Positions 4,111 to 21,974 of a stretch of 64,000 nucleotides of DNA are shown here, piece after piece. Position numbers and translations under genes: made by a program. Under the pieces are notes generated by a model. That model was not told where the DNA came from, did no database searches, and saw only the letters and a program-made list of their open reading frames with translations. Numbering within the stretch: position 1 is the first letter of the stretch; each line of letters starts with the position of its first letter. Source of the stretch: Bdellovibrio bacteriovorus (GTDB lineage: Bacteria; Bdellovibrionota; Bdellovibrionia; Bdellovibrionales; Bdellovibrionaceae); NCBI RefSeq assembly GCF_001592745.1, contig NZ_LUKD01000001.1, positions 317,384-381,383 of the forward strand. Reading direction: 5' to 3'.

Positions 4111-4514
4111 TATTGAGCCTCTAAATATGCATCCCTAAAACAATTGCGAAATCTTCAAAGCCCAGTATACAAAACTTTACCGATAAAGACAGTCACTTGG
4201 ACTAAGGCTGTGCGCAGCGCCTTGGATCCGAACTTCATTCAAGAATTCGCCGTTTACGTCGTGCTGCACCACCACGGCACCATATCAGTTCATCAGTTTT
4301 CAGTGGTGTTCCAGATCCAGTCTATCGCGGAACGCAAAATTTCCTTTCCGCAGCGCGATAGGCCATTGTTATCACACGGCGACTCTTGTCGGAGATACCC
4401 CTGCATCTGCGATCACATTCAAACTACCAGTCATTCTCTGTACCAAAAAAAGTTAAGTAAGGCCAGGACCTAGAGGGGGTCAGCCAGTATCTTGGACCGA
4501 TTCAAAACGCCGCC
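4111..4514. other. Intergenic stretch without a supported gene
   Basis: About 400 bases between the FMN protein and the dehydrogenase-like fragment. A plus-strand frame of 109 codons (4144-4473) has no ribosome binding site, odd composition and no recognisable motif. Minus-strand frames are broken by stops. It may be decayed coding sequence. Confidence 0.4.
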
Positions 4515-4691
4515 TCAATCGAACTTTCTTTTGAGATTTACCCGCGCACGCCGCGAACGTCTTTTTCGAAAAAATGATGAAAGTTCCTGCCAGTAAACTG
4601 CGCTTAAAATTGAACCAATTTTTTCATAATTTTCGCGAAGTTCAATTTTCCCGGGGCCTACAAACGTTAATGCGTTCATTGTTCGTTTCAT
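4515..4691 (-). pseudogene. Short remnant with an alcohol-dehydrogenase-like N-terminus
   Basis: A 58-codon minus-strand frame begins right behind the Ca2+ ATPase gene with AGGAAGTAAAAA before ATG. Its first 20 residues (MNALTFVGPGKIELRE is the informative part) read like the N-terminal strand of zinc alcohol dehydrogenases, where MKAL..GPGKIEL is typical. After residue 20 the similarity stops and the tail is arginine-rich (FRKRRSRRAR). No zinc ligands or Rossmann motif follow. I interpret it as the 5' end of a deleted dehydrogenase gene joined to unrelated sequence. It could also be a genuine small protein. Confidence 0.4.
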
Positions 4692-4701
4692 TTTTTACTT
4701 C

Positions 4702-7323
4702 CTAGGTTGAGATCGATCTATGTTTAATAAATTTTCTTACTTCAAGTGCACTGACTGGAATCATTGTTAAAATCAGAAACAATATACATTCAGTCCACCC
4801 GATGTGAGTGACCTTGAAAACATTCTGAAATAGCGGGAAATGGTGAAGCGAGATTTGAAAAATCATCGGAACCATGACGGCCGCAATGTGATACATGTTG
4901 GAAAAAAGGCCCAGCTGGAAAACAGTCTGAGTTTCGCTACGACAGGCGAAAGATCTAAAGAGTTCCGCAAATACCAGGAAAGTAAATACATGTGTACGAG
5001 CCGTCGTCTCATCTTCATATTTTAAACTGTATCCGTAAACTAAAAGTGACATTACGCCGATCGTGATGCCTATAAAAATCATTTCTTTGTAAAAGTGACT
5101 GCTAAAAAAATTCTCTGCCGAAGGCCGCTTTGTCGTTTTCAGGAAATTCTTAGGCACAGGTTCTGCGGCCAAAGCCAGTGACGGTAGACCGTCAGTAACA
5201 AGATTAATCCAAAGCAGGTGGATCGGAGCCAGCGGTGCTGGCCAACCCACAATGGCCGCACCCAACATGATCAGAATTTCAGAGAGATTTCCCGAAAGAA
5301 GATATTGAATCGAGCGGCGGATATTCCCATAAATAGCCCGGCCTTCTTCCACCGCTGAAACAATTGTCGCAAAATTATCGTCTGTAAGGATCATTGAGGA
5401 AGCTTGGCGCGCGACCTCGGTTCCACCACGACCCATTGAAATGCCGATTGACGCCTGCTTCAATGCGGGAGCATCGTTGACTCCGTCGCCGGTCATAGCA
5501 ACAACATGTCCGAGGGCTTGCCAGGATCTTACAATTCTCAATTTATGCTCTGGTGAAACCCGAGCGTAGACTGCTACTTTTTCAACTTGTTCGCGAAGCT
5601 CTGAATCGGATAGTTTTTCCAACTCGGGCCCGGCAAGAACACCATTAAAATTCTTGTCCAGGATGCCAAGTTCACCGGCAATTGCTTTCGCTGTCTCTGG
5701 ATGGTCGCCTGTGATCATCACAACTTTGATCCCAGCCGCGCGGCAATCAGCTACCGCCCTAATGCTTTCAGTACGAGGCGGATCGGCAATGGATACAAGG
5801 CCTAAGAATTCCAAATTTTTTTCAACTTCGGACCAGGCAGGGAATTTTGTTCCTCGCTCAGCTATTGTGTCTGACAGATCTCTTCTCGCAATGGCCAAAA
5901 GTCTTCGTCCCTTAGCAGACAAGTCCTCTACGTTTTGAACGATCTTTTGCCGATCTCCTGTCGATAAATTGCAAAGCGAGATGACGGATTCAGGAGCCCC
6001 TTTACAATGAACCAAGATACCATCCCCATGCCGGCAAGCGACGCTCATTCTCTTTCGGTCGCTATCAAAACTCCATTCGAAAACTCTAGGGTACTTTCGC
6101 GTGAGACTGCCTGAATCCAAGCCCGCGTTTTGGGCTAAAACCAGCAGTGCAACCTCTGTGGGATCACCCGAATGACCGCCATCAGAATTAGGCGCCGCAT
6201 TCGAGCACAGGACTGAACTCGTTATTAATTCAATCTCAGACTGAAGACTCTCGTCCACGGAGCGCAAGCCAGACTGCAAAGTGTAAACCTCACGAATGCG
6301 CATCTTTCCTGTCGTCAGCGTTCCAGTTTTGTCGGTACAAATGACACTGGTTGATCCCAGAGTTTCAACCGCAGGAAGATGCTTCACAATCGCATTCTTT
6401 TTCGTCATACGTCGAATGGCTAATGCTAACGCCAAAGTAACTACCGTCGGAAGCCCTTCAGGAATCGCGGCAACTGAGAGACTGATCGCAGTCATTGCGA
6501 TCTCAAGCCATACTTCGCCGTGCAAGTATCCTAAGATGGCGACAAGAATGACGACGACTCCGCAGGCCCATAACAATTTTTGACTGACTTCCTCAAGCCT
6601 CAGCTGCAATGGCGTTGAAGCTTTGTCTGTACTTTCCAGGAGACTGGCAATTTTGCCTTTCTCCGTTTTAAGTCCGGTAGTTGTAACGATAGCCTTCGCA
6701 GTTCCTGTGGCCACTGCAGTTCCGGCAAATAACATATTTTTCCGATCAGCCACGACAGTCTCGATCTCTACCGGAGAAGTTCTCTTAGTAACAGGAATAG
6801 ACTCACCAGTTAAGACCGCTTCATCTGCCGAAACCTGTCTGGCTTCAATGAGGCGAGCATCAGCTGCGACAAAGTCTCCGGACTCTAGAAATAAAATATC
6901 ACCGGGAACAATCTGAGAAGCCGGGATCTCATGAATTTTACCGTCTCTTATGACTCGCCCCTTTGGTGCCGACATTTTTTTCAGAGCTTCAACCGCGGCT
7001 TCGGCTTTGATTTCTTGAAAGAAACCAATCAACGAATTGATGATGACGATTGTTAAAATGGCGACTGCGTCCACTGTTTCGCCCAAAGCAAACGAAATGA
7101 CCATCGCCACTATGAGGATAATGACAACTGGGCTTTTAAATTGGTGAAGAAGGCGCGAAAGTCTTGAGACCTTCTTTTCGGTTCCCAATATATTGGGGCC
7201 AAACTTTTCTAGTCGGCTATTAGCTTCGTCAGGCCCAAGCCCTCGGTCCACGGTGACCTGATGTTCAGTCAAAATCTCATCAGCTTTTCGCGCCCAAGGG
7301 GGGATGGAACTATTTGGGCTCAT
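4702..7323 (-). CDS. P2-type Ca2+-transporting ATPase, SERCA-like
   Basis: An 873-residue cation pump with the full P-type order: N-terminal cation ATPase domain, actuator loop (LTGESIPV), phosphorylation motif DKTGTLT near residue 335, nucleotide domain and TGDGVNDAPAL. Helix M4 has PEGLP, M5 has GNLSEI and M6 has NLVTDGLPSLAL, so the SERCA calcium ligands (Glu in M4; Asn and Glu in M5; Asn, Thr and Asp in M6) are present. The CPC motif of P1B heavy-metal pumps is absent. It is the last gene of a six-gene operon and overlaps the CusA-like gene by 4 bp. That company is unusual for a calcium pump; a role in general cation stress is inference. Confidence 0.9.
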   Translation of the reverse strand: MSPNSSIPPWARKADEILTEHQVTVDRGLGPDEANSRLEKFGPNILGTEKKVSRLSRLLHQFKSPVVIILIVAMVISFALGETVDAVAILTIVIINSLIGFFQEIKAEAAVEALKKMSAPKGRVIRDGKIHEIPASQIVPGDILFLESGDFVAADARLIEARQVSADEAVLTGESIPVTKRTSPVEIETVVADRKNMLFAGTAVATGTAKAIVTTTGLKTEKGKIASLLESTDKASTPLQLRLEEVSQKLLWACGVVVILVAILGYLHGEVWLEIAMTAISLSVAAIPEGLPTVVTLALALAIRRMTKKNAIVKHLPAVETLGSTSVICTDKTGTLTTGKMRIREVYTLQSGLRSVDESLQSEIELITSSVLCSNAAPNSDGGHSGDPTEVALLVLAQNAGLDSGSLTRKYPRVFEWSFDSDRKRMSVACRHGDGILVHCKGAPESVISLCNLSTGDRQKIVQNVEDLSAKGRRLLAIARRDLSDTIAERGTKFPAWSEVEKNLEFLGLVSIADPPRTESIRAVADCRAAGIKVVMITGDHPETAKAIAGELGILDKNFNGVLAGPELEKLSDSELREQVEKVAVYARVSPEHKLRIVRSWQALGHVVAMTGDGVNDAPALKQASIGISMGRGGTEVARQASSMILTDDNFATIVSAVEEGRAIYGNIRRSIQYLLSGNLSEILIMLGAAIVGWPAPLAPIHLLWINLVTDGLPSLALAAEPVPKNFLKTTKRPSAENFFSSHFYKEMIFIGITIGVMSLLVYGYSLKYEDETTARTHVFTFLVFAELFRSFACRSETQTVFQLGLFSNMYHIAAVMVPMIFQISLHHFPLFQNVFKVTHIGWTECILFLILTMIPVSALEVRKFIKHRSIST

Positions 7324-10300
7324 GGCGTCCTTTGTGCGGGATAGACCCTTTTTTCCCTTAAGAGATAGAGGACCGGAATGACGAACAAAGTAAGTAATGT
7401 CAGTGAGATGAGGCCACCGAACATCGGCGATGAAAGTCGCTTCATCACGTCTGCGCCAAGTCCGGTAGCAAGCATGACAGGCAAAAGACCAAAGATATTC
7501 ATGCTGACCGCCATGAGAACCGAACGCATGCTCTTTTGGGCTCCATCAACCGTAGCCGCGATAAAATCATCGTGACCCTTGAGTGTCCCTTCCTTACGTC
7601 TTCGATTCCATGCCTCGTCAATGAACACAATCATGATCGAAGCGGTTTCAACTGCCACACCAATTAGCGCGATGGCCCCAGCCCAAACAGCGACACTCGT
7701 GTTGTAATTGAGCCCCCACATGAGGAGAATGCCGCCAATGAGAGAAAGTGGAACAGAGAACATGATAAGCAAGCTTTTCGATACAGATCGCATACTGAAA
7801 TACAGAAACGCGAAAATGAGTAAGAGTGTGAGTGGTAAAATGATTTTCATTCGATTCTGCATTCGCTCTAAATATTCATATTGCCCCGTCCAAGACACAA
7901 AATAACCAGGAGGCATTTTGATGTTTTCCAGAACTGCTTTTTTAGCATCGTTTACGTAGCTTCCGGGATCTCTATCTTGTAAGTCGATGTAGACGTACCC
8001 GGCTAACGAACCATTTTCGTTAAGAACCATTGGCGGTCCCTTTCGGGTTACGAGCTGGCCCAACTGTCCAAGCGGAATCTGTGTTCCAGTTGGAGTTGCC
8101 ACAAGAGTCCGACTGAGCTTATCAATGCTATCTCGAAGTTCCCGCGGATAACGCACATTGATGGTATACCTTTCGCGACCTTCAATGGTTTGGGAAATTT
8201 CCATTCCACCTATGGCAGTCTCGACCACAATTTGGACATCACCAACGTTGAGACCATATCTTTGTAGATCTTCTCGGTTCGGCTCAAAATCGAGATAGTA
8301 GCCGCCAATAATTCGCTCGGCGTAAACGCTTCTGGTTCCAGGAACATTGGCTAAGGTTCGCTCAAGTTGTTGTCCGATGTCCTCAATGACCTTGAGGTCT
8401 TTACCAAACACCTTGATTCCGATGGGTGTACGTATACCCGTGGAAAGCATATCAATTCGCCCACGAATTGGCTTCGTCCAGGCGCGGTTGAGGCCCGGTA
8501 CTTCGACGGCTTTGTCAAGCGCCGCAATCAGTTCATCTTCACTTAAACCTTTTCGCCATTCAGATCTTGGTTTCAACCGAATGGTGTATTCAAACATTGA
8601 AAGTGGTGCTGGATCTGTTGCTGTATCAAACTTGCCAGCCTTACCAAACACACTTTCAACTTCTGGTACGGTCTTTATAGCTTGGCTTTGGCGTGTCAGA
8701 AGATCTGTTGCTGAGGTCACTGAAATTCCGGGGACTGTAATTGGCATGAAAAGTAGATCACCTTCCCATAGCGAAGGCATAAATTCTGATCCCAAACGCG
8801 AAAAGCCAAACAGGCTCAAGGCCACCATAGCTGCGGTGGCAACCAACACGACCTTTGACTTCTTCAAACACCAAATCAAAGCAGGTCTATAGAGCGATTG
8901 TAACTTTCGGTTGACGGGATTTTCTTCTTCAGAGCGAATACGACCTTTCAGAAAGTAGGCGATCAAAGGCGGTGTCACAGTGATCGACACAAGGGCCGCG
9001 GCAATCATTGCGAAGGTCTTCGTGTAAGCCAGAGGATGAAACAGCTTTCCCTCTTGCGCTTGCAAAGCAAAAATAGGAAGAAATGAAACACTGATAATGA
9101 GTAAAGCACTAAAGATCGAAGGGCCGAGCTCTTGACAAGCCTCTGTCACAAGCTCCAAGCGGCTTCTTGATTGGCCATGTTCAGCAATTTTCTTATGAGA
9201 ATTTTCAATAAACACGACGACACCATCTACAATGTCGCCAATGGCTAGAATGATTCCTCCCATCGACATGATATTAAGACTGATATCGAGGTGATAAAGG
9301 GGAATCATTGATATCAAAACGGACAGAGGCAGAGTAATAGCGACGACTAAAGCACTTCGGACGTGAAAGAGAAAGAGCAAAATGATTAAGCAGACGAGAA
9401 CCATCTCTTCAAAGATGTTGTTCCTGAGCGTCTCAATGGCTTCTTGAATCAGACTCGAACGATCATATACGACTTTTAACTCTACGCCTGGCGGGAAGGC
9501 TCCTTTGACTTCCTCAATTTTGGCTTTAACTCGTTCAATGACTCGGGAAACCTCTTCGCCTTGTCTCATGACAATAAGGCCGCCGACCGTGTCACCTTTT
9601 CCATTGAAGTCAGAAAGGCCACGACGAATATTTGGCCCGATATTCACACGAGCCACATCCGCAACTCGAATAGGGGTTCCTGTGGAGCTTAGGCCTAACG
9701 AGATATTTTCGAGCTCACGAGGATCCTTAATATAGCCAAGACCTCGCACGTAATACTCTCGCTCAGAAATCTCGAGGGTCCTTCCACCAACATCCTTGTT
9801 GTTTTCCCGAATGGCACGGATCACACGCTCGATGGGAATTTTGAGCGATGCCAAGCGATTGGGATCGACTTCCACTTGATACTGCCTTTCAAAACCGCCA
9901 ATGCTGCTGACTTCGGCTACCCCAGGCACAGAAGCCAGCCAATACTTCAAATACCAATCTTGAAAAGTCTTTATCTCAGCGAGATCATGCCGGCTTGATT
10001 TGTCTTCGAGCACATACTGAAAAACCCAGCCGACACCCGAAGCATCGGGACCTAAAGAAGTCTTTGCCCCCTGGGGAAGTTGCCCGGAAATTTTTGATAA
10101 ATACTCAACAACTCGGCTTCTGGCCCAATATAGATCCGTATCGTCTTCAAAAATCACATAGACAAAAGACATTCCGAACATTGAAAAGCCACGAGCCACT
10201 TTAACCTTTGGAGCGGATAACATTGAAGCAACCAAGGGATAGGTGATCTGATCTTCCACAAGATCCGGGCTGCGGCCCATCCATTCGGTGTAGATAATTA

Positions 10301-10439
10301 CCTGAGTCTCAGAGAGGTCAGGAATCGCATCGACTTGAATATTCTTAAGGCAGTAAATACCCCAAAGACCTAAAAATGCGGCAATAGCGAAAGTGATTCG
10401 AGAATTTCGAGAACACCAGTCAATTATCCTTGCAATCAT
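7320..10439 (-). CDS. CusA/CzcA family heavy-metal RND efflux pump
   Basis: A 1039-residue inner-membrane proton antiporter of the HME-RND family. The N-terminal helix is followed by two large periplasmic loops and helix bundles, giving the usual twelve transmembrane segments. The proton-relay segment AIGDIVDGVVVFIENSHKK of helix TM4 is typical of CusA/CzcA. Length matches the family. It forms a tripartite pump with the CusB-like adaptor (6 bp upstream) and the TolC-like protein. The start is immediately after the adaptor stop. Substrate (Cu+/Ag+ or Zn/Co/Cd) cannot be decided from what I read; histidine-rich ends of the adaptor and a methionine-rich TolC tail lean toward copper or silver. 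Confidence 0.92.
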   Translation of the reverse strand: MIARIIDWCSRNSRITFAIAAFLGLWGIYCLKNIQVDAIPDLSETQVIIYTEWMGRSPDLVEDQITYPLVASMLSAPKVKVARGFSMFGMSFVYVIFEDDTDLYWARSRVVEYLSKISGQLPQGAKTSLGPDASGVGWVFQYVLEDKSSRHDLAEIKTFQDWYLKYWLASVPGVAEVSSIGGFERQYQVEVDPNRLASLKIPIERVIRAIRENNKDVGGRTLEISEREYYVRGLGYIKDPRELENISLGLSSTGTPIRVADVARVNIGPNIRRGLSDFNGKGDTVGGLIVMRQGEEVSRVIERVKAKIEEVKGAFPPGVELKVVYDRSSLIQEAIETLRNNIFEEMVLVCLIILLFLFHVRSALVVAITLPLSVLISMIPLYHLDISLNIMSMGGIILAIGDIVDGVVVFIENSHKKIAEHGQSRSRLELVTEACQELGPSIFSALLIISVSFLPIFALQAQEGKLFHPLAYTKTFAMIAAALVSITVTPPLIAYFLKGRIRSEEENPVNRKLQSLYRPALIWCLKKSKVVLVATAAMVALSLFGFSRLGSEFMPSLWEGDLLFMPITVPGISVTSATDLLTRQSQAIKTVPEVESVFGKAGKFDTATDPAPLSMFEYTIRLKPRSEWRKGLSEDELIAALDKAVEVPGLNRAWTKPIRGRIDMLSTGIRTPIGIKVFGKDLKVIEDIGQQLERTLANVPGTRSVYAERIIGGYYLDFEPNREDLQRYGLNVGDVQIVVETAIGGMEISQTIEGRERYTINVRYPRELRDSIDKLSRTLVATPTGTQIPLGQLGQLVTRKGPPMVLNENGSLAGYVYIDLQDRDPGSYVNDAKKAVLENIKMPPGYFVSWTGQYEYLERMQNRMKIILPLTLLLIFAFLYFSMRSVSKSLLIMFSVPLSLIGGILLMWGLNYNTSVAVWAGAIALIGVAVETASIMIVFIDEAWNRRRKEGTLKGHDDFIAATVDGAQKSMRSVLMAVSMNIFGLLPVMLATGLGADVMKRLSSPMFGGLISLTLLTLFVIPVLYLLREKRVYPAQRTP

Positions 10440-10445
10440 ATGCGA

Positions 10446-11591
10446 TCACTTTCCATGGCCACTGTGTCCTTCTGAAGCTTTCTCTCCTCGCTGCAACGCC
10501 GCCTGAAGCTTACTTTCTGCATCTATAAGAAAATGAGCGCTGACGACAACTTCTTCGTTTTCTTTCAGTCCTGAAAGAACAATGAACTCTTGCCCAACGC
10601 GCGCACCTACTTTGACTTCTCTGGGTTCAAATCTCGAATTCTGCCTTCGGACAATGACGATTCGACGAACGCCTGTATCAATCACGGCATCATCAGGAAT
10701 CACAATCGCATCACCCAAATTTTTCTTAAGCTCAACGTTGGCAAACATTCCTGGCTTGAGTTTCTGGTCCGGGTTTGGCATTTCAATTCGAGCTTTTGCG
10801 GTTCTTGTCTCCATTTCGACTTCAGGATAAATGTAACTGATCTTTCCTTTTAGAGTTCGATTCGCGTCGTAAGGAAGCTGAATGACTGTTTCATCGCCAA
10901 CAGAGATGCTTGCCAGGTCATATTCGTATAAAGTGACGATTATCCAAACTTTCGATAGATCTGCGATATAGTAGAGCTCCATTTCTGGAGTGATATACAT
11001 GCCTTTAATGGCTGTCTTATTGACGATAACTCCATCAACGGATGACTCAAAAGTGAGTGCTCTCTTGGCTTTTCCTGACTGTGTGAGTTTTGAAATTTCA
11101 GTTTCTGGTACGTTCCAAAGTCGCAAACGTTGAAGTGCGGCTTTAGCGATTTCTTGACCTGTACTGCCTTGCTTTCGTGCCGATAGATATTCTTCTTGAG
11201 TTGAGACCAGATCAGGACTGTAGAGACTGTAAAGCGGTTGCTTCTTCTTAATTTCCTTTCCGACATAATCTGCAAATACATCCTCGATCCATCCATTGAT
11301 TCGAGTATGAACGTGGGCTTCCTTTGTTTGATCAGCCGTCACGGTGCCGACGGTGCGAATCGTGTGGTCGACTTTGCGTTTACTGGCCTTAGCAACCTTC
11401 AATCCCATTTTGCTTTGCTGTTCGACTGGAACTTCTACAGGAACCCGAGGATCCTCTTTCCTGGGTTCGGCTTTCTTTTGATCAGTTGCTTTCGGTGCAG
11501 GCGGAGGACTTCCGTGTTGGTGTCCAGCTTGAGCGAATGCCGACCGGGCTAGGAACAATGATATAAACGCTACTATCAAATGATTTTTCAT
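10446..11591 (-). CDS. CusB-type periplasmic adaptor of metal efflux
   Basis: A 381-residue membrane fusion protein with a signal peptide (cleavage near AFAQ-AG). The mature N-terminus is histidine-containing (HQHG) and the C-terminus is also His-rich (GHSGHGK), suggesting metal contact. The centre has the barrel-sandwich/lipoyl region, the coiled hairpin (STQEEYLSARKQ) and a beta-barrel domain (PGMFANVEL) as in CusB. It bridges the TolC-like outer membrane channel and the CusA-like pump. Its ATG overlaps the TolC stop by one base (TAATG), so the three components are translationally linked. Confidence 0.9.
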   Translation of the reverse strand: MKNHLIVAFISLFLARSAFAQAGHQHGSPPPAPKATDQKKAEPRKEDPRVPVEVPVEQQSKMGLKVAKASKRKVDHTIRTVGTVTADQTKEAHVHTRINGWIEDVFADYVGKEIKKKQPLYSLYSPDLVSTQEEYLSARKQGSTGQEIAKAALQRLRLWNVPETEISKLTQSGKAKRALTFESSVDGVIVNKTAIKGMYITPEMELYYIADLSKVWIIVTLYEYDLASISVGDETVIQLPYDANRTLKGKISYIYPEVEMETRTAKARIEMPNPDQKLKPGMFANVELKKNLGDAIVIPDDAVIDTGVRRIVIVRRQNSRFEPREVKVGARVGQEFIVLSGLKENEEVVVSAHFLIDAESKLQAALQRGEKASEGHSGHGK

Positions 11592-12976
11592 TACATACCT
11601 TCCATACCTGAACCGTCATTGCTTCGAGTTCCACCAGATTTGGTTTTGCGAGTAGGTCCGCTTATTCCTGAGCCCATATTGACAGTTCCTGACCCCATTG
11701 AACCCATACCAGCATCAGATCCCATGGAATCGCCACCGAATAAGCTCGGCCGGCTTGGCGACAAGCGAAGAAGAGGCGGACTAGATAGCAAATCCTTCAG
11801 TCGCAAATTTGCTAAAAAGACATCCATTTGAGCCGCAACAAGCTCAAGTTCTTGCATGCGCTGAACCTTCAACGAATCAAGATACTGATCGAGAGATAGC
11901 TTGCGAGATGAATAACTTGTCTTCGCGTTCTGAACCGCTAGTCGCGTCGAGGGAAGGACTGAAGAAAGGTATAGCTTGACCACATCCTTGGAAGTCTTCA
12001 ATTGCTCTTGAGCTTCCAACCACTCTGCGGAAATTCGGTTTACAAGACTCTGTCGCTCAAAATCGGCAACTCGCTTCTGTGCGGAAGCGGCCTGGCTCAA
12101 ATCACTTTGCTTTCTCCAAAAGAAGAGCGGAAGACTTGCACCAAGCATGACACCCCAATTTTTCTTTTCATCCATCATTTCAGGATCAGGTTCCATCATC
12201 ATTCCCTGCAATACGAAATCAGGAAAATAAGAAAGCTTTGCGAGTCGCTCTTCTTCGGAAGCCCGCTTCAAATAAAGATCAATCGAGCGAAGTTCGGGTT
12301 GTGCTGAAAGATCCGGCTGCGCAGGAGGGCTTGCGGGCTCCCTATATTCGAAGGCTAAAACAGGGATGGCAGCCTGTGCGGGCTGATTTCTCATTTCATT
12401 AAAGACGGCCGTGAGCGATTTTTGCTCCCTTTGAAGCCGCAGCTTCTCGACCTCCAAGATATTGAGCTCGACCTGTGAACGAAGCCATTCGTGGTGTCCA
12501 GAAGTTCCCGATTGATAACGGGCCTTGGAGCTATCAGCGACCGTCTTCAAAATCTGATGAAGGTCTCGATTGAGTTCAATAGCCTTCTGATTCAGAAATG
12601 TTTTGAAATATATTTGAGTTGCGAGAACTCGAATTTGCCGCGCGGCTGTCTCAACATCGCTCTTTGCTGAATCAGCTTCGTGGGTTGCAATAGCTGATCG
12701 GGCGGAGTTCTTTCCAGGAAAAGGAATCGTTTGACTAATTTGATATTTCTTAACGCCGCCCATACTACCATCAAAGGGCTTCTCATCTACGCCTGCGGCG
12801 ATAAAGGGATCGTCCCAAGTAGAAGCTGGCCGCACCAGGAACTGCGCCTTCTCTGCAGCAGCCTTAGCCGCCTGCAAAGTTGGATTCGCCTCTTGCACTT
12901 GTGTAAGATAGTCTTCCAGCGCGCCCGCTTTCGCGCCTGCACTCGCACTCAAAGCCAAACACAATGTTGCAATCAT
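11591..12976 (-). CDS. TolC-family outer membrane efflux protein with Met/Gly-rich tail
   Basis: About 461 residues when begun at the ATG at 12976, which has AGGTGAAAGTC before it and gives a proper signal peptide (MIATLCLALSASAGAKA). A longer frame to 13033 would lose that signal and overlap the upstream gene. Two helical repeats of the outer membrane efflux family follow. The final ~50 residues are unusual: rich in Gly, Ser and Met with repeated MGS units (GSMGSGTVNMGSG). Such methionine clusters bind soft metals in other copper proteins; here that is inference. It completes the tripartite pump with the two downstream genes. Confidence 0.88.
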   Translation of the reverse strand: MIATLCLALSASAGAKAGALEDYLTQVQEANPTLQAAKAAAEKAQFLVRPASTWDDPFIAAGVDEKPFDGSMGGVKKYQISQTIPFPGKNSARSAIATHEADSAKSDVETAARQIRVLATQIYFKTFLNQKAIELNRDLHQILKTVADSSKARYQSGTSGHHEWLRSQVELNILEVEKLRLQREQKSLTAVFNEMRNQPAQAAIPVLAFEYREPASPPAQPDLSAQPELRSIDLYLKRASEEERLAKLSYFPDFVLQGMMMEPDPEMMDEKKNWGVMLGASLPLFFWRKQSDLSQAASAQKRVADFERQSLVNRISAEWLEAQEQLKTSKDVVKLYLSSVLPSTRLAVQNAKTSYSSRKLSLDQYLDSLKVQRMQELELVAAQMDVFLANLRLKDLLSSPPLLRLSPSRPSLFGGDSMGSDAGMGSMGSGTVNMGSGISGPTRKTKSGGTRSNDGSGMEGM

Positions 12977-12981
12977 GACTT

Positions 12982-13653
12982 TCACCTCGTGCCTCCAGCT
13001 CTTGCAAATTCCACGAGACCCTTCTTGCAGCACTCGGGAAGCTCTTGGCTAATAAGTTGAATTGCTCTATTAGCTTTTTCCATGAAGTTTGCTGAAGATT
13101 CGACTTGGTGATACTTCGGATGCCCAGACCAAATCCGATGAATTTTCTCATCGATACTTTGCGCCTGTAAGGCCGTTTCGATTCTCAAAGGATTTTGGTG
13201 GTTGTATCCGTGAGTTTCGCTGGGGGCTCTCAAGTGGATGACCGCTTGGTATCGGCTGTATTCAATATCTTTTGATGTTCTCAAAGTGGACCAAAACGTC
13301 TCTTCTTCAGAGGGCCAGTAAGCGACTCCGTCAAGGGTCCCTCGATCGCAGAGACCCAGGGCCCATTTCTTTTCGTTGAGAACCAATTCTTCCATATCAC
13401 GCTGAATGTGAAAAATAGCCTTCTGGGCTGCAGCTTTTCCTGTGGGCGTTTCTAGACGCCAGAAGCCTCCTCCAAAAATAATGGAAGCGGACTCCGGAAG
13501 TATGGCGACATGTTCACAAAGCATTTTCTTTATCATTTCAAGGACTGCCGTTTTACCAGCACCGGGTCCTCCCGTAAGAACGACGAGCTTTGTGTCGTGT
13601 TTCAGATGCTGACAGGAACATTCGATGTCACATATAATAGGAGACGCGCTCAT
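12982..13653 (-). CDS. AAA_28-type NTPase (TTD14-like), first copy
   Basis: A 223-residue P-loop NTPase. Walker A is GGPGAGKTA near residues 29-37. The middle carries LCDRGTLDGVAYWP, characteristic of the AAA_28 family, whose members include phosphoinositide or GTP-binding Ttd14-like proteins and kinase-like proteins of unknown bacterial role. Its start overlaps the upstream beta-CASP gene by 4 bp and its stop lies 5 bp before the TolC start, so it is in the metal-efflux operon. A second copy (24899-25492) shares LCDRGTVDGAAYWPG. The N-terminus has three cysteines (CDIECSC) that the other copy lacks. Function in metal stress is unknown; perhaps nucleotide or metabolite phosphorylation. Confidence 0.75.
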   Translation of the reverse strand: MSASPIICDIECSCQHLKHDTKLVVLTGGPGAGKTAVLEMIKKMLCEHVAILPESASIIFGGGFWRLETPTGKAAAQKAIFHIQRDMEELVLNEKKWALGLCDRGTLDGVAYWPSEEETFWSTLRTSKDIEYSRYQAVIHLRAPSETHGYNHQNPLRIETALQAQSIDEKIHRIWSGHPKYHQVESSANFMEKANRAIQLISQELPECCKKGLVEFARAGGTR

Positions 13654-15014
13654 GTGCCTTCCAAATCATAAGTTTGCTCGTGCTTCGGCACTTCGCAAGA
13701 CCATCCGAATCGATTGCTGAGATGACCCTTCAAAGATTCGGCAGCTTCGGGTTCGCCGTGAGTTATAAAAACCTTCTTTGGATGAATATTGGATTTATCC
13801 AGCCATTGAATGATCTCAGTGTAATCAGCGTGTGCGGACATGTTTTCAAGTACGTCGACTTGTGCGCGCACAGGAATGAACTCGCGAAAGATCTTAATCT
13901 CTTTTGCTCCATCTTGGATCTGTCGGCCCCTTGTTCCGGCGGCCTGAAAACCAGCGAGCAAAATGTGATTCTTAGGATCTGGAGCGAAGGCTTTTAGATG
14001 GTGAAGAATTCTTCCGCCGGTAGCCATGCCGCTGGCAGAAATAATAACCATAGGCCCCTTTCTCTCGTTGAGAGCCTTTGATTCCTCAACTGTCTTTACA
14101 TACCGAACGACTTCACAAGTTTCACGGCATTGTTCATCTGAAAGCTTATGAAGTTGTCGATAGTCGCAAAAGAGTCCGGTGACATTAGAGGCCATTGGGC
14201 TATTGAGATACATCGGAATATTGGGAATGCGTCGCGATCTCTTGAGGACAGAAAGGTGATACATGAGAGTCTGGGCCCTTCCGACAGTAAAGGCTGGAAT
14301 GATAACGACACCATGTCTTTTGGCGGCGTCATTAATAACTCTTTCTAGAGCAGCCTCGGGATTGGATTGACCGTGTTGACGATTGCCATAAGTCGATTCG
14401 ACGACCAGGTAGTCGACTTCAGGAATCGAAACTGGTGGGCGAAGAATGACGTCTTGCTGTCGTCCAACATCCCCAGAGAATGCGATTTTTCTGTCACCTA
14501 CAGATACGACGACAATCGCTGATCCCAAAATATGGCCTGAATATAAGAAACGCACTTTAGTGCCTGGGACAACCTCGAATTCTTTATCGAAAGGCTGGGG
14601 GTGAAAATATTCCAGGGATTTTTCAGCTTCTAGTTTCGTAAAGAGTGGAAGTGCAGGATTGTGTTTGGATAGCTTCTTGCGGTTAAGAAACTCAGCGTCC
14701 TCTTCTTGTAGGTATCCCGCATCAGGAAGAAGAATGCGGCAGAGGTCCAACGTCGCCTCGGTACAATAAACAGGCCCCTGAAATCCCTCTTTAATGAGTC
14801 TTGGAATATAACCAGAGTGATCGATATGCGCATGGGTCAGTAAGATCGCATCAATCGACTTCGGATCTACTAAGAAAGGTTCCCAGTTCTTAAGTCGAAG
14901 ATCTTTAAGACCCTGGAACAAGCCGCAATCGATCAAAATATTTTTGTTTTTAATGGTGAGTAGATATTTCGATCCCGTAACAGTTTGTGCGGCCCCCAGA
15001 AATCGAAGTTGCAT
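13650..15014 (-). CDS. Beta-CASP metallo-beta-lactamase fold RNase-like protein
   Basis: A 454-residue protein starting at the ATG at 15014, preceded by GGAGGAGTCATTTT; the longer frame to 15038 lacks such a site. Metallo-beta-lactamase domain with LTHAHIDHSGYIP (HxHxDH zinc site), then the beta-CASP domain, MIISASGMATGG-like segment (VIISASGMATGGR) and the C-terminal RNA-metabolising motif (SAHADYTEI, THGEPEAAESL). Homologues include CPSF73-like archaeal nucleases and the bacterial YkfI/Rv-type MBL-RNA proteins often seen in hypoxia or stress clusters. It is the first gene of the six-gene operon that continues into the Cus pump and the Ca2+ ATPase. Confidence 0.88.
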   Translation of the reverse strand: MQLRFLGAAQTVTGSKYLLTIKNKNILIDCGLFQGLKDLRLKNWEPFLVDPKSIDAILLTHAHIDHSGYIPRLIKEGFQGPVYCTEATLDLCRILLPDAGYLQEEDAEFLNRKKLSKHNPALPLFTKLEAEKSLEYFHPQPFDKEFEVVPGTKVRFLYSGHILGSAIVVVSVGDRKIAFSGDVGRQQDVILRPPVSIPEVDYLVVESTYGNRQHGQSNPEAALERVINDAAKRHGVVIIPAFTVGRAQTLMYHLSVLKRSRRIPNIPMYLNSPMASNVTGLFCDYRQLHKLSDEQCRETCEVVRYVKTVEESKALNERKGPMVIISASGMATGGRILHHLKAFAPDPKNHILLAGFQAAGTRGRQIQDGAKEIKIFREFIPVRAQVDVLENMSAHADYTEIIQWLDKSNIHPKKVFITHGEPEAAESLKGHLSNRFGWSCEVPKHEQTYDLEGT

Positions 15015-15124
15015 AAAATGACTCCTCCATCGGGACAAATAATCTCAATGCACTAAACAGAATGTCCCAGCTGCCACATTCGGCACTCCCCTTCTAGGAA
15101 CCCGTTTCAAACCTGTGGATTTAA

Positions 15125-15658
15125 CTAATCTATTGCCCATCTATCTCTCAGAGCTCGCATTTCGTTCAGTTCGGTTTCCTGAGCCTTGGCAATTCTTTTT
15201 CCTAAATTTCGTATAGCAGATCTTTCGGATCGTACTGCCGCTTCATTCCCTAGAAATATGGCGCCGGGATGGTGCATGATCATGGAATCCAAAAACGCGA
15301 TATCAAATTCCAGCCCACTCAAGCGTTCCAACTTAGACATATCCATCTCTGCACCATTATATGTATATTCAGGGCTCGACGAATACCAACGTCTTCGCCA
15401 TTCTTGAAGCTTCATCAGTTCTTCCTGTTGATCCTTTTTCATCATTTGAGCCATATGTTTCAACTTGGAGTGATAGGCCTTCGCGATGGCCATCTCTGCC
15501 ATTTTGATACCACCTTCGTGATGGGCGCTCATCTCATCAATGAACTTCACACTATAAGGCCGTTTGTGAAAGGCTCCGTTCGCAAAAGCGACTTCATTCC
15601 CAAGAAATAAAACAAAAAAAGAAAAAACAAAGATCCATAATTTTTGAATACACATCAT
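15125..15658 (-). CDS. DUF305 family periplasmic protein
   Basis: A 177-residue exported protein with a hydrophobic signal (cleavage near AFA-NG). It contains both typical DUF305 histidine motifs: MSAHHEGGIKMAEMA in the first half and DSMIMHHPGAI in the second. These four-helix proteins often sit with copper resistance genes and are thought to bind metal through the His/Met pairs; the biochemical role is not settled. It lies 110 bp upstream of the beta-CASP/Cus operon and on the same strand, which supports a metal-related role. A GGGGGTC site precedes two adjacent ATG codons; either could be used. Confidence 0.85.
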   Translation of the reverse strand: MMCIQKLWIFVFSFFVLFLGNEVAFANGAFHKRPYSVKFIDEMSAHHEGGIKMAEMAIAKAYHSKLKHMAQMMKKDQQEELMKLQEWRRRWYSSSPEYTYNGAEMDMSKLERLSGLEFDIAFLDSMIMHHPGAIFLGNEAAVRSERSAIRNLGKRIAKAQETELNEMRALRDRWAID

Positions 15659-15714
15659 AAGACCCCCAATAATAAATTTTCACTCGAAACGTTTTTAGTT
15701 TTCAAAATTTCGTA

Positions 15715-16176
15715 TTATCGGCTGATATTACTCTCCAAAGCTTCAATTGCTTCACGAGTTGAGCGGTTATTAATTTTCTCAAAGTCACCTCGGCGAGCCA
15801 GAAGTATACATCGCTCATTGTCGATCTCACGTTGGGTTCTAAAACCAAGTCTTCTTAAGACCGGCACAGGCGGACACCAACCTTGAACCGCATGCTGCAA
15901 TAAGAAACCAGCCACAACTGCGGGTAATAAAAACCAACGTTTGTTAACTGTAGCACCCAACGTGAGGCCTGCGAGGACAATACTTGAAGCATTTGCTTCA
16001 ATCACTCTCTCAATATCCCATTCACGTTCCAACTCGGCGAGACGCTGCTCAATGGCATCAACATCAAATCCTGTAAAGTTCAACCTGTCGATTGTCGCCT
16101 GTCGAATTTTTTCGTTGATGGCAGGTTTGGTATTTAATTGTACACGCGAACTACTCTCTGCGATTCGAAGTTGCAC
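15715..16176 (-). CDS. DUF2892 (YgaP-like) membrane protein
   Basis: A 153-residue protein with a GTG start preceded by AAGGAGGAACT. The first ~70 residues are soluble and helical and contain an INEKIRQATIDRL segment. Two transmembrane helices follow (about 68-85 and 90-105) with the DUF2892 hallmark GWCPPVPVLRRLG, as in the membrane part of YgaP. YgaP itself also carries a rhodanese domain; here that is missing, although a separate periplasmic rhodanese is encoded at 24483-24812. It is divergent from the sigma-54 controlled operon at 16497 and could share its upstream site. Function is probably linked to sulfur or redox stress, by association only. Confidence 0.75.
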   Translation of the reverse strand: MQLRIAESSSRVQLNTKPAINEKIRQATIDRLNFTGFDVDAIEQRLAELEREWDIERVIEANASSIVLAGLTLGATVNKRWFLLPAVVAGFLLQHAVQGWCPPVPVLRRLGFRTQREIDNERCILLARRGDFEKINNRSTREAIEALESNISR

Positions 16177-16405
16177 AGTTCCTCCTTATCTACCTGGAAA
16201 TCCCAGGCTTTGTTCAGTTAACCAATTCAGTTTCCTTCTGGTCGTTCAGATACGTTACTTTCTCAATGCATCTAAAACATATCAGGCCACTTCGTCTTAA
16301 AGGATCATTTAATTGAAATACAGATTGTTCAAAAACAAGAACTCTTAATTGATCTAATTCCTGCAAACTTTTTGAAAACATTAAGACGAAAAGTCACAAC
16401 GGAAA

Positions 16406-16416
16406 GACAAGTTGTC
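16406..16416. promoter_or_regulatory. Upstream activator palindrome, site 1
   Basis: GACAA-G-TTGTC, a perfect 5-1-5 palindrome, lies 46 bp upstream of the -24 GG of the sigma-54 promoter. The identical 11-mer occurs before the second sigma-54 promoter of the window (21393-21403). It is a likely binding site for the Fis-type domain of the activator encoded at 22081. Confidence 0.6.
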
Positions 16417-16455
16417 CTCTCTAGGACCTCAATAAACACAGGAACATTTTGGGAG

Positions 16456-16471
16456 TGGCTTACAACTTGCT
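16456..16471 (+). promoter_or_regulatory. Sigma-54 promoter of the lipoprotein/ABC operon
   Basis: TGGCTTACAACTTGCT has the -24 GG and -12 GC with exactly the required spacing and matches TGGC-N8-TTGC at all core bases. It ends 25 bp before the first start codon (16497). Confidence 0.75.
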
Positions 16472-16496
16472 CTTTCAATGATAGAAGGAGCAAGCA

Positions 16497-16973
16497 ATGT
16501 CGAAACCATTCCTATTAATGACCTCAATCCTGATATGCGTTGGCTGTCAAACCATGCCCTCCTACAACGAGGCGGAACTGGATCGTAAAATTCAGGAGGA
16601 AAAGCCAGCAAATACTCCAGAAGATATTGTTCAAAGAGCCGCCGACGTATTTTCTTCTGCTCCCAATCTCACAGAAGATCAAAGAATCCGCCTAAACCGT
16701 CTTTACTTAAAAACCTATGCAGATTCAATGCAGATTAGAAAAGAAATTGGACAGATGAAATCTCTTCTCTTCAAAGAAGCCGCGATAAAAAAATTCAAGA
16801 CTGGTGACGTGAATCAACTAACGCAAAGGATTGTTGCAGCCGACAACCGACGTTTAAATATCATGTTTAAGGCCCTCGAAGAAATGCAGAGTATAGTAGG
16901 ATACGGCGAGGACAAACAAGAACTCTACGAATATTTGCGTAACTACGAAATACCAGGAAATGCCAGTCGATAA
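16497..16973 (+). CDS. Small lipoprotein of unknown function
   Basis: A 158-residue protein with a lipobox (ILICVGC, Cys17), so a periplasm-facing lipoprotein. The mature part is helical and charged, with a segment LTEDQRIRLNRLYLKTYADSM reminiscent of the short helical hairpins of periplasmic stress sensors (Spy/CpxP/ZraP type), but I would not assign it. GAAGGAGCAAGCA precedes ATG. It is the first gene behind a sigma-54 promoter and is followed within 9 bp by the flavin-binding protein and then the ABC exporter, so it probably acts in the same envelope stress response. Confidence 0.75.
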   Translation: MSKPFLLMTSILICVGCQTMPSYNEAELDRKIQEEKPANTPEDIVQRAADVFSSAPNLTEDQRIRLNRLYLKTYADSMQIRKEIGQMKSLLFKEAAIKKFKTGDVNQLTQRIVAADNRRLNIMFKALEEMQSIVGYGEDKQELYEYLRNYEIPGNASR

Positions 16974-16982
16974 AGGTGTTAC

Positions 16983-17441
16983 ATGAATACTTATCACAGC
17001 CATCTAAATACCATTCCGGAAGCTGATTGTCTGAATATCTTAAAAAAAGCCAGTTTCGGCCACCTGGGCTTTCAGAAGAAAGACAGGATGATGATCCTTC
17101 CCATTAATTTTCTTTACAAAGATAAAAACATTTACAGTCATTCTTTAGAGGGAAGTAAACTGGAAGCAATGAGAGAACATCCCCGGGTCTGTTTGCAAAC
17201 CGAAGTTACTGAGAGCGCAATAAAATGGAAGAGCGTTATCGCATGGGGACAATTTGAAGAATGCAGCGAGCAAGATGCAAATCAGATGATGCGGGACCTC
17301 ATTAAAAACATGAATTTAACACATCAGAAATTTGGCGGTTCTTCTTTAGAAATAGACTTCTCTGCCCTATTAGAAAGAGCCGTTATTTACCGTATTAAAA
17401 TTGACGAAGTCGTAGGGCGATCCGAAGGGTACAAGGATTGA
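16983..17441 (+). CDS. Pyridoxamine 5'-phosphate oxidase family (flavin-binding) protein
   Basis: A 152-residue split-barrel flavoprotein. The start SLNTIPE-like helix ([20 protein letters not shown]) and [17 protein letters not shown], followed by VCLQTEV and [12 protein letters not shown], are typical of the Pyridox_ox_2 or flavin/F420-binding group rather than genuine PdxH. Members bind FMN, heme or nucleotides, and genes of this type are common in bacterial hypoxia and stress clusters next to Hsp20 and universal stress proteins, as here. It is cotranscribed with the lipoprotein (9-bp gap) and the ABC ATPase (1-bp gap). Substrate is unknown. Confidence 0.82.
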
Positions 17442-17442
17442 T

Positions 17443-18153
17443 ATGACGAAAGCGCCTCTCTTAGCATGTCGTGGTCTGACAAAAGACTACACAATGGGAG
17501 AGATTCAGATACAAGCACTCCGGGGAATTAATTTAAATTTCAATGATAGCGAATTCGTTGTGCTTCTTGGGGCGTCCGGCAGTGGTAAATCCACGTTGCT
17601 TAATATTCTTGGAGGATTGGATGTGCCGACCTCAGGAGAAGTTGTTTTCGAAAACAAAACCTTAAGCAACGGCACCGCCGAAGAACTCACCTTATTTCGT
17701 CGCGAGAACGTAGGTTTTGTTTTTCAGTTTTACAATTTAATTCCGAATTTGACCGCCGCCGAAAATGTAGATCTTGTAACAGATATTTGCGAAGACCCGA
17801 TGACATCAGCAAACGCTTTGACTTTGGTAGGCTTGAAAGAAAGACAATTTTTTTTTCCATCTCAACTTTCTGGGGGAGAACAACAACGGGTCGCCATCGC
17901 TCGTGCCATCGCGAAGAAACCCAAAATTCTTCTTTGTGATGAGCCTACTGGCGCCTTGGACCTACAGACAGGAAAAATGGTCTTATTGGCTATTCAACAA
18001 GTGCACAGAGAACTTGGTACACTGGTGATCGTTATCACCCACAACTCGGCCATTGCCGATCTGGCAGACAGAGTTCTTTATCTTGGAGACGGAAAAATCT
18101 TAAAGGAGCGGATCAACGAAAAAAAGATCTCTATAGATGAGGTTTACTGGTGA
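17443..18153 (+). CDS. ABC exporter ATPase, LolD/MacB/DevA type
   Basis: A 236-residue nucleotide-binding subunit. Walker [10 protein letters not shown] is near residues 44-52, Q-loop [14 protein letters not shown], signature [15 protein letters not shown] and Walker [13 protein letters not shown] are all intact, followed by the His switch ITHN. The family powers extrusion or mechanotransmission rather than import. Its stop overlaps the permease start by 4 bp (GTGA). With the FtsX permease and HlyD adaptor it forms a complete DevBCA/MacAB-like export system. Confidence 0.92.
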
Positions 18154-20504
18154 AACCTTTAAATACAAAACTGCTGCGCGACCTAGGCTCACTAAAGCTT
18201 CAGATTTTTTCCATGGCAGTTTTGCTATCCTGTGGAATTGCACTACTCACCGCTTCTTGGAGCGCCTATGTTTCGCTCTCGAAAGCCCGTGATGAATTTT
18301 ATCAGAGCTATGAATTCAGTGATATTTTTGCAGAGGTGGTGCGTGCTCCCTCCTTCGTGTTAACGCAGATTCAGAACTTACCGGGCGTAGATTTTGCCGA
18401 AAGTCGCATCACAGCTTCAGGCCTAATTGATCTTGAGTCCCAAAACGAGCCCGCACTCGGGCTCGTGATCTCGATCCCGAAAACACTTGGACTGAACCGA
18501 ATCCATTTGCGTGGAGGCCGCTGGCCTGAAGTCGGTTCGAGCACGGAAGTGTTGGTGCATGAAAGCTTCGCTTTAGTTCATAAACTGAAGGCCGGAGACA
18601 TCTTTTTTATCAACATCAAAGGACAACGTCGAAAGCTGCAGGTTTCCGGTATTGCTATATCTCCGGAATATGTTTATGCACTCAATCCTCTAGCACCATT
18701 TCCTGACGATCGTCACTTTGCTGTTCTTTGGATGCTTGAAAGTGCATTAGAGGAAATCACCGGGCTCCAGGAGGCCTTCAACGGCATCGTCATCAAGAGT
18801 CGTCGAGATAAAGACATCCCGGGTATTATAAGAAATGTCGATCTGATTCTTGCTCCCTACGGGGGAATCGGCGCCTACGACCGAAGCCAACAGATCAGCA
18901 ATATGTTTGTACAAGATGAAATTCGCCAGCAAAGATCTATGTCCTATGTCGTTCCTACTATTTTCATATTGGTGGCTATCTTCATTTTACATACGGTCTT
19001 GCATCGTCTTATCAGTATCCAGCGTCCACAGATCGCGACACTAAAATCGTTGGGTTATGCTTCGTCGTCAGTTGCTCTGCACTATTGGAAGCTTGTCACA
19101 GTTATTTTGAGCGCAGGACTCATTCCTGGCTTTCTTTTTGCGCAAGGAATCGGTCTTTGGTATGCATCTTTGTATCGACAATACTTTCGTTTCCCTAGCA
19201 TCGAATTTTCTGTCTCCCCCATCGCATTCATAATAGCCATTTCTGTCAGCTTCATTCCTGGTTGGCTTGTAGTCTTAAATGCACTCAGGTCGATCTTTCG
19301 ACTTCAACCCGCTGAAGCCATGCGGCCGTTGACCACATTGAATTTTCAAATGACACGGGCTCAGACTCTTTTTACCACTCAAAAAAAGACACTGACCAAA
19401 ATTATTTTAAGGGATCTTTTGGCCCGCCCCATACGTACATCTCTATCGGTTCTGGGGCTCGCGGCCGCCGTCGCCATTCTTATCAATGGAACGTTCTGGG
19501 GAGACGTCGTCAGCTTTTTTATTCATCGTCAATTCCGCGAGGCCAGCCGAGAGGATCTCGAAGTGCGCTTCGTTCACCCAAGAAAAAAGGAAGTGGTGAG
19601 TGAACTTTTGCGTATTCCAGGGGTCGAGATGGTCGAAGGCGCGCGTATCGTGGGGGTCAAGATGATTTTTAGAAATATCCGTCAAAATACAGCGGTCATT
19701 ACGACACAAGAAAACCCTCAGCTGCGACGCGCTCTTTCTGTAACAGGAAATCTTATTCGTCCTTTGCCGGGAACAGTTCTCCTTACACGTTATTACAAAG
19801 AAAAATACGACCTGACGTTCGGAGACCGCGTCACTCTTGAAATATCTGACAAGAGCCACAAGCCTTTTTCTGCGGTCGTGGGTGGCTTTGTTGACGATAT
19901 GGTTGGAGCCGCTGTTTATGCAACCAAGTCAGATCTTCAGCGTTGGCTTCATGAAGAGTCTGCGATTGACAGTGTTTATCTTAAAGTGGACCCCAAAAAA
20001 GTTGGGAGCATTTATGTGCGTCTAAAATCCGCCCCGGAAGTTTTATCCGTTCAAGTAAAAAGTCTTCTCTTACAAAGTTTCAATCGCACAGTTGCAGAAA
20101 TGATCACCGTCTTTAAGACGATACTCATTGGTTTTGCCATATCCATTACGTGCTCGGTTTTATTCAACATGTCACGCATAAATATTTCAGAGAAATCTTG
20201 GGAGCTTGCTAGTATGAAAATCATGGGGTTCAAGAACTCTGAAATTTTCCAAATTCTGTTTCTAGAGATAGGAGCGCAAGTTCTTGTTGCACTGGGGCCG
20301 GGATGCATTCTTGGATACTATCTGTCTCTTTTAAGCACCCGCCTTATTCATTCTGAAACTATGGCCTTTCCGTTGATCATTCTTCCATCTACCTATGCCC
20401 TGGCCATAGTCGTTGTCGTGCTGTCCTACACTGTCATCGGTATATACGTACGAAAAAGCATCACCCGCTTAAACATGACTGAAGCATTGAAGGCGAGGGA
20501 CTGA
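18150..20504 (+). CDS. FtsX/MacB-type ABC permease with two FtsX domains
   Basis: A 784-residue permease with a GTG start overlapping the ATPase stop. An N-terminal helix ([19 protein letters not shown]) leads into a periplasmic domain, then three helices, a second short helix and second periplasmic domain, and three C-terminal helices; this is the duplicated FtsX layout, so one chain supplies both halves. Such fused permeases export lipids, lipoproteins or small hydrophobic molecules together with an adaptor. Substrate here unknown. Confidence 0.88.
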
Positions 20505-20506
20505 AG

Positions 20507-21388: not shown

Positions 21389-21392
21389 TTTG

Positions 21393-21403
21393 GACAAGTT
21401 GTC
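21393..21403. promoter_or_regulatory. Upstream activator palindrome, site 2
   Basis: GACAAGTTGTC, identical to the copy at 16406, 58 bp (centre) upstream of the -24 element of the hsp20 promoter. Confidence 0.6.
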
Positions 21404-21413
21404 TAGTCAAAAT

Positions 21414-21431: not shown

Positions 21432-21454
21432 TTCCTTAAAGGCTCCAATTCAGT

Positions 21455-21470: not shown

Positions 21471-21508
21471 ATCATAAATCAAAAATCTGATTATCAAGGA
21501 GGCACGTG

Positions 21509-21967: not shown

Positions 21968-21974
21968 AATGATT

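Follow-up and report, generated by a model that had tools for sequence, protein, structure and literature searches.

Why should a copper- and silver-type efflux pump be encoded together with a calcium-type ATPase, an RNase-like protein and a P-loop protein? The question is raised by a 64,000-nt stretch of the Bdellovibrio bacteriovorus contig NZ_LUKD01000001.1 (positions 317,384 to 381,383), called the window below and numbered from its first letter. Between positions 4702 and 15014, on the minus strand, the listing of open reading frames (ORFs) shows six of them tightly packed as one operon. At a probability of about 45%, we read this as a horizontally mobile metal/energy-stress operon in which Cus, a P2A ATPase and an RNase/kinase pair would cooperate. 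The recurrence of some of these unusual partners, in shuffled order and in distant bacteria, suggests a shared stress function and not chance. No description of this gene combination was found in literature titles and abstract openings.

In the order of transcription, the operon encodes a beta-CASP metallo-beta-lactamase-fold RNase-like protein of 454 aa (13650..15014), an AAA_28 P-loop protein of 223 aa, a probable nucleoside/nucleotide kinase (12982..13653), a TolC/CusC-type outer-membrane channel (11591..12976), a CusB-type periplasmic adaptor (10446..11591), a CusA-type heavy-metal resistance-nodulation-division (RND) pump (7320..10439) and a P2A (calcium-type) P-type ATPase (4702..7323). 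The joints, in the same order, are a 4-bp overlap, a 5-bp gap, a 1-bp overlap, a 6-bp gap and a 4-bp overlap. The 5-bp gap presumes the internal ATG at 12976 as the start of CusC; the longest ORF of this gene, from GTG 13033, gives a 52-bp overlap with the AAA_28 gene instead. With the start at 12976, the linkage of six genes by 1-4 bp overlaps or 5-6 bp gaps, as described in a preceding sequence-only reading, is confirmed. The ORF joints and the Pfam domains, with which the gene names of all six ORFs agree, likewise bear out its placing of the beta-CASP and AAA_28 genes in one operon with the pump parts.

The straightforward reading of CusCBA is that of a complete Cu/Ag-type pump, because CusA can be aligned to E. 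coli CusA (3t51, residues 6-1027) with the metal-site methionines kept (LLFMP, APLSM and RIDML in the window; LLYMP, APLEM and RIDML in E. coli). We take these three aligned methionines to be the periplasmic metal site of E. coli CusA. The window protein scores 1094 bits with the NCBIfam model TIGR00914 'CusA/CzcA family' (cut-off 701), which places it in the HME-RND group; the adaptor carries the Pfam domains HlyD_D23 and HlyD_D4 of CusB and lies above the cut-off of NCBIfam RND_mfp, and the channel matches Pfam OEP in two stretches. The operon thus resembles the Cus/Sil operons (CusCFBA; silCFBA-silP) in CusC, CusB, CusA, the methionine triad of CusA and the presence of a P-type ATPase gene. 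In sil operons, the P1B pump SilP stands behind SilCBA. In contrast to these systems, the joints of the window operon are too tight to hold a gene for CusF, no pair resembling CusRS/SilRS stood out when the list of neighbouring ORFs in the window was looked over, the beta-CASP and AAA_28 genes are additional, and the ATPase is of P2A and not of P1B type. A separate P1B CopA is encoded elsewhere in the host genome (591 bits, cut-off 397); cytoplasmic Cu export therefore need not depend on the P2A pump, nor need this pump replace CopA.

The class of the ATPase is given by its Cation_ATPase_N and Cation_ATPase_C domains, by oxygen ligands in transmembrane helices (TM) 4, 5, 6 and 8, and by the lack of CPx and HMA features. 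Each of the seven SERCA-type ligand positions is conserved, making up a full two-site set: E289 in TM4, N679 and E682 in TM5, N707, T710 and D711 in TM6, and E787 in TM8, those of TM5 and TM6 being located by alignment to SERCA2 and those of TM4 and TM8 by alignment to LMCA1; the role of each ligand residue in SERCA is taken by us as given. A P1B nature was considered and rejected, as Pfam finds no HMA domain, the models TIGR01525 and TIGR01511 reach 246 and 180 bits (cut-offs 346 and 397), and TM4 reads IPEGLP instead of a CPx motif. The earlier statement that the ATPase has the full calcium ligands of SERCA and no P1B motif is therefore upheld. Its description as calcium-type stands as regards the P2A class, and needs refinement as regards the family: the best NCBIfam models are PMR1-type (697 bits, cut-off 798) and SERCA-type (618 bits, cut-off 703), and because both of these Ca-ATPase equivalogs stay below their cut-offs, the sequence assigns the protein to a distinct subfamily of P2A pumps. 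It scores 602 bits with LMCA1, 522 with SPCA1 and 496 with SERCA1. It has the domain set and transmembrane ligands of the P2A Ca2+-ATPases (Listeria LMCA1, SERCA, PMR1/SPCA) and differs from them in being encoded in a Cus operon as well as in falling below the PMR1 and SERCA cut-offs; compared with LMCA1, it has Glu in TM5 (E682) and TM8 (E787) where LMCA1 has Ala and Arg. One could propose that this ATPase, in SilP's place, carries the toxic metal handled by Cus, or a transition metal accompanying it (e.g. Mn2+, Cd2+), from the cytoplasm to the periplasm and hands it to Cus, and the position of the P2A gene directly downstream of CusA in 6/6 linked Bdellovibrionota loci would suit such a hand-over. 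However, the seven ligand positions are all of oxygen or amide type, with no Cys or Met, and the genome has its own CopA, so we consider this improbable.

The glutamate of TM8 was followed across homologues of the pump. Of 141 aligned rows, 80 have Q at position 787 and 32 have E. After removal of the duplicates L129, L212, L120 and L125, E787 is found in 9/9 Cus-linked pumps and in 21/128 others, where 'others' means no close CusA in the available DNA (58/139 loci span less than 6 kb, most with at most 1.5 kb of flank). Genome G104 (L125), counted among the others, has a CusA-like gene of 28% identity in a wider stretch. In the first 44 sequences, the TM8 Glu was present in 9/9 Cus-linked pumps and in 2/34 others having the site; by clade, it occurs in 9/9 scored rows of the clade containing the window pump and in 0/12 rows of the sister clade.

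The first gene of the operon encodes a protein with Pfam Beta-Casp, Lactamase_B and RMMBL domains and an HxHxDH motif (THAHIDH). Its nearest match is the TTHA0252 ribonuclease (258 bits), also its closest solved relative, followed by Cas14, aCPSF1/FttA and CPSF73. With TTHA0252, a bacterial CPSF73-like enzyme, it shares a near full-length alignment, the metallo-beta-lactamase, beta-CASP and RMMBL parts and the HxHxDH motif, which places it among the beta-CASP RNases; it differs in operon context, and its RNase role here is a predicted one. Identity with Cas14 of type VII CRISPR systems was rejected (NF045584, 393.5 bits against a cut-off of 800).

For the second protein, the P-loop and a CDRG..DG motif are largely invariant across 25 aligned orthologues, and a comparison with the sequences of the Protein Data Bank gave no significant match. 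An AlphaFold2 model built from three sequences (mean pLDDT 78.7) aligned best with the ribosylnicotinamide kinase NadR (Z 16.1 over 193 residues), followed by thymidylate and deoxycytidine kinases at Z of about 14-15 (thymidylate kinase, Z 14.9 over 179 residues); in Foldseek, thymidylate kinases rank first and NadR 43rd. In the model, the fold and P-loop are those of NadR and thymidylate kinase, whereas identity is only 13-14% in these two alignments. The model thus makes a nucleoside/nucleotide-kinase fold probable. Since structure alignment and Foldseek rank NadR and thymidylate kinase differently, we keep the claim to the fold, which does not fix the substrate. The protein had been called an AAA_28 NTPase; the Pfam family and the P-loop are as described, and on the model it is better read as a NadR/thymidylate-kinase-like kinase. 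The 'RNA processing' formerly attached to the operon would likewise be better termed RNA degradation plus nucleotide salvage, given the nucleoside/nucleotide-kinase fold modelled for the NTPase.

Is the linkage of these genes accidental? In 15/290 genomes of the phylum, the P2A subfamily (at least 850 bits) occurs at 16 loci, and CusA lies directly upstream of P2A at six of them, in five genomes (the window's own, G226, two in G138, G056 and G105). The window order, beta-CASP-AAA_28-CusC-CusB-CusA-P2A, is not that of the relatives: G226 has CusC-CusB-CusA-P2A-beta-CASP-AAA_28, then PPK2, then an MgtC/DUF4010 protein; G056 has CusC-CusB-CusA-P2A-AAA_28; and both copies in G138 read CusA-P2A-AAA_28, CusA being truncated where the contig ends. 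In these three genomes, in which other families are represented, CusA-P2A thus adjoins AAA_28. In G105, one contig breaks off within P2A and the one bearing AAA_28 starts within beta-CASP, which fits the G226 order but does not prove it. AAA_28 is therefore in the same cluster as Cus-P2A in 4/5 Cus-linked genomes, the fifth (G105) being cut by contig ends, and an AAA_28 orthologue (at least 205 bits) is present in 5/5 Cus-linked against 0/10 other P2A genomes (Fisher p 3.3e-4, kinship not corrected for). When the sample was enlarged to 368 genomes, the P2A subfamily was found in 20 at E 1e-240. In G750, a genome outside the sample of 290, a separate search for AAA_28 revealed a gene that shares 4 bp with the end of a P2A gene (69% identity with that of the window), the upstream side of the latter being lost at the contig end; a further P2A copy (53-54%) lies unlinked in the same genome. 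A Fisher test on the 368 genomes (6/6 against 1/14) is given no weight, its classes having been fixed ahead of the reading of the G735 and G750 loci, and a binomial estimate of chance adjacency is likewise set aside. Close conservation within the genus was not found: the P2A subfamily is present at E 1e-220 in just three (G000, G226 and G232) of 140 genomes from the order, a type of strict limit that misses truncated copies such as that of G750.

A chance linkage of Cus, P2A and AAA_28 was rejected, because the same genes are joined again in a different order within Bdellovibrionota. It had been held that a differing gene order in relatives would make the linkage accidental; the order does differ, yet the genes re-join, and this argument fails. 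As for operon conservation, gene order is not kept, the joining of Cus, P2A and AAA_28 recurs within Bdellovibrionota, and a chlamydial plasmid again brings together Cus, P2A and beta-CASP. The unusual combination of genes for soft-metal export, calcium-type pumping and RNA functions is real, and the relatives argue against accident; the earlier interpretation is supported to this extent, and a biochemical coupling of the three activities is a hypothesis.

Outside the phylum, the metagenome-assembled genome of Alphaproteobacteria bacterium GWC2_42_16 carries CusC-CusB-CusA-P2A at 48, 63, 76 and 61% identity, the only CusCBA-P2A match in 398 genomes of its phylum (next match 703 bits). On plasmid 1 of Criblamydia sequanensis, a single strand encodes TolC-CusB-CusA-P2A-phosphoketolase-GlgP-ATP cone-beta-CASP-thymidine phosphorylase-PRPP synthetase-acetate kinase, the beta-CASP domain being confirmed by Pfam. 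CusCBA, P2A and beta-CASP are thus in one same-strand run as in the window, whereas the P2A is from another lineage, and phosphoketolase, GlgP, thymidine phosphorylase, PRPP synthetase and acetate kinase replace AAA_28. A Simkania negevensis plasmid has P2A-TolC-CusB-CusA-GlgP. In a 44-row maximum-likelihood tree, rooted at the midpoint and with G735 scored as unlinked, the window P2A falls in a ten-row clade (support 100/97) of which 7 rows are Cus-linked. The alphaproteobacterial pump is nested in this clade beside G226, which points to a transfer of window-clade P2A genes between phyla, and the pumps of the two chlamydial plasmids group apart from it as a pair (100/100), across well-supported branches. 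The Cus label changes 5 times on the tree, at least 4 of them forced by well-supported branches; the mean after shuffling was 8.4, and 2/500 shuffles were as low. Given these changes and the chlamydial pair on the far side of the tree, the simplest reading is that P2A pumps would have joined Cus at least twice separately.

The strongest rival to a cooperating operon is hitchhiking, i.e. a mobile stress island that stacks independent resistance and stress genes, so that the packing would mean co-expression only and the P2A pump, RNase and kinase would have no part in metal export. We regard it as quite conceivable, short of likely. It would fit the presence in the window of HSP20, USP, a sigma-54 activator, a second AAA_28 protein and a second P-type ATPase, the lack of another genome of the same genus among the 20/368 with the P2A subfamily, and the varied cassettes in which beta-CASP occurs on the three plasmids inspected, e.g. 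in Legionella fallonii. It fits less well with a P2A-Cus link that most simply arose at least two times, with an AAA_28 link that persists through order changes, and with a direct CusA-P2A adjacency that looks rare on plasmids: a joined CusA and P2A query was covered to at least 80% in 4/5000 best-scoring plasmid records, with Criblamydia first. Among the matches listed (60), Criblamydia is the only P2A case and only one of the 4 records at or above 80% is identifiable; two others with both parts, also among these 60, are Methylocystis copper-translocating P-type ATPases at 78% cover. The Simkania plasmid would escape the joined query because its ATPase precedes TolC.

Further clusters were seen on the plasmids. 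In the L. fallonii plasmid (L233), an annotated run of a metal-sensitive regulator, a copper-translocating P-type ATPase, TolC, an adaptor (CusB) and an RND pump (CusA) is divergent from beta-CASP, thymidine phosphorylase, PRPP synthetase and phosphoketolase. At 15372-24396 of the Criblamydia plasmid (L250), TolC, CusB and CusA genes occur a second time (CusA at 33% identity), and after them come genes for a further P-type ATPase, TolC and a copper oxidase.

The beta-CASP and AAA_28 genes were also followed on their own. AAA_28 orthologues at or above 205 bits number 34 loci in 33/290 phylum genomes, the next match having only 174 bits. The neighbourhoods of 34 loci, one of which (L072) falls under 205 bits, were scanned by taking the two closest ORFs per side with a length of 150 aa or more and discarding any that reached 900 aa; among the 127 ORFs so obtained, no family is commoner than the beta-CASP domain, with 15 occurrences in either orientation. 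A beta-CASP gene lies at most 450 bp upstream of AAA_28 on the same strand in 9/33 loci other than the window (L040, L041, L042, L044, L045, L050, L054, L062 and L067). One of the nine, L045, is a Cus-P2A cluster; in L040 and L042, a CusCBA-like set (CusA 48-49% identical) starts about 4 kb downstream of AAA_28 on the same strand; and the other six had no CusA match in the stretch fetched. L043, with no beta-CASP at that place, has CusB- and CusA-like genes (33 and 41%) 5 kb downstream of AAA_28. No close P2A was found in the genomes of L040, L042 and L043 (G057, G029 and G269; best E 2.3e-14, 2.3e-14 and 3.2e-16). Given these sets without a close P2A, the presence of AAA_28 in metal islands may be more widespread. 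On plasmids, AAA_28 gave one distant match, in Photobacterium, and on viral contigs three relatives only, at 25-29% identity. Because beta-CASP and AAA_28 also travel together without P2A, the pair looks like a separate stress/salvage module able to join a pump operon. This bears on another explanation, in which the pair would regulate the operon post-transcriptionally, the RNase acting on the operon's own mRNA and being switched by the NTPase. The pair is indeed encoded first in the run of six, and the relatives of the RNase include aCPSF1/FttA and CPSF73; with the pair present in loci without Cus, and the Criblamydia RNase sitting among sugar-phosphate and ATP-producing enzymes, we nevertheless consider such regulation very improbable.

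Several observations weigh against a cooperating metal/energy-stress operon. Metal islands gather unrelated genes, and beta-CASP and AAA_28 are often found without Cus-P2A. The AAA_28 gene has no match in the GWC2_42_16 genome. In G735, the CusA-like gene is only 39% identical and is separated by other genes from P2A, 0.9 kb downstream of it, and AAA_28 and P2A lie on different contigs. Window-clade P2A genes without Cus in the DNA fetched were seen in G232 (79% identical, 11.7-kb contig) and G146. The TM8 Glu was rejected as an exclusive mark of Cus-linked pumps and is an enrichment only, in view of the 21/128 others that have it. One old Cus-P2A linkage with many losses is a less simple but conceivable alternative to two or more joinings. 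The kinase assignment of AAA_28 stands on a model built from three sequences, and no metal regulator site was identified for the operon.

Upstream of the operon, on the same strand, a DUF305/CopM-like protein (15125..15658, 110 bp away; Pfam DUF305, NCBIfam CopM 68.1 bits, below the cut-off of 90) is possibly co-transcribed; together with a small YgaP-like membrane protein it occupies 15125-16176, and the real operon may comprise eight genes. The gap upstream of beta-CASP contains a 22-bp imperfect palindrome, GAATGTGGCAGCTGGGACATTC (15060..15081, unstranded), as a candidate operator only. As a regulon motif it gave one exact copy genome-wide, other matches having 3 mismatches and being no commoner than the control. 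Predicted intrinsic promoters and terminators were as numerous as in shuffled sequences and gave nothing usable.

About 10 kb from the operon, a stretch that also holds the HSP20, USP and sigma-54 activator genes encodes the second AAA_28 protein (24899-25492, 35% identical to that of the operon) and the second calcium-family P-type ATPase (27471-29903), with PNE instead of PEG in TM4. In L109 (G232), the gene that follows the closest P2A relative (79%), at 4404-4814, encodes a small protein weakly matching the YHS domain (26.3 bits against a cut-off of 30.3). Elsewhere in the window, five packed plus-strand genes at 32725-37900 (P450, an unknown protein, FAD monooxygenase, a glutathione-transferase-like protein and Rieske oxygenase, judged by eye) are a possible secondary-metabolite cluster. 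A sulfatase-like gene at 47372-50040 stands beside a gene resembling its formylglycine-generating enzyme (translations judged by eye), and phospholipase D domains are fused to a VTT membrane domain at 58962-61112 (Pfam).

How might a cooperating metal/energy-stress operon work? From its anatomy we infer the following steps. Cus would expel Cu(I)/Ag(I) from the periplasm, and the ATP-driven P2A pump would expel Ca2+ (or Mn2+), offsetting the divalent-ion imbalance caused at the membrane by toxic soft metals. The beta-CASP RNase would degrade RNA and the AAA_28 protein would phosphorylate the nucleosides or nucleotides set free, and this RNA recycling would sustain the ATP/NTP pools during pumping. 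In the chlamydial operon, ATP would be gained from the pentose of degraded RNA by way of phosphoketolase and acetate kinase. A wider claim, which we hold to be rather unlikely, would make CusCBA and P2A a functional unit that has arisen repeatedly, with separate assembly in Bdellovibrionota and in Chlamydiota. Soft-metal efflux would then require that Ca2+ (or Mn2+) be actively pumped out by way of a complete two-ion site like that of SERCA, and the unit would bring its own ATP/nucleotide rescue enzymes, either a beta-CASP RNase with a new AAA_28 nucleoside-kinase family or an RNase with the phosphoketolase pathway.

Cu/Ag resistance is normally explained by Cu/Ag-specific pumps alone. If true, the repeated pairing of Cus with a calcium-type pump would make divalent-ion homeostasis a part of soft-metal resistance, and bacterial P2A ATPases, the roles of which are poorly known, would gain a concrete and testable context. 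Moreover, the RNase/kinase pair suggests that metal islands can bring their own energy supply.

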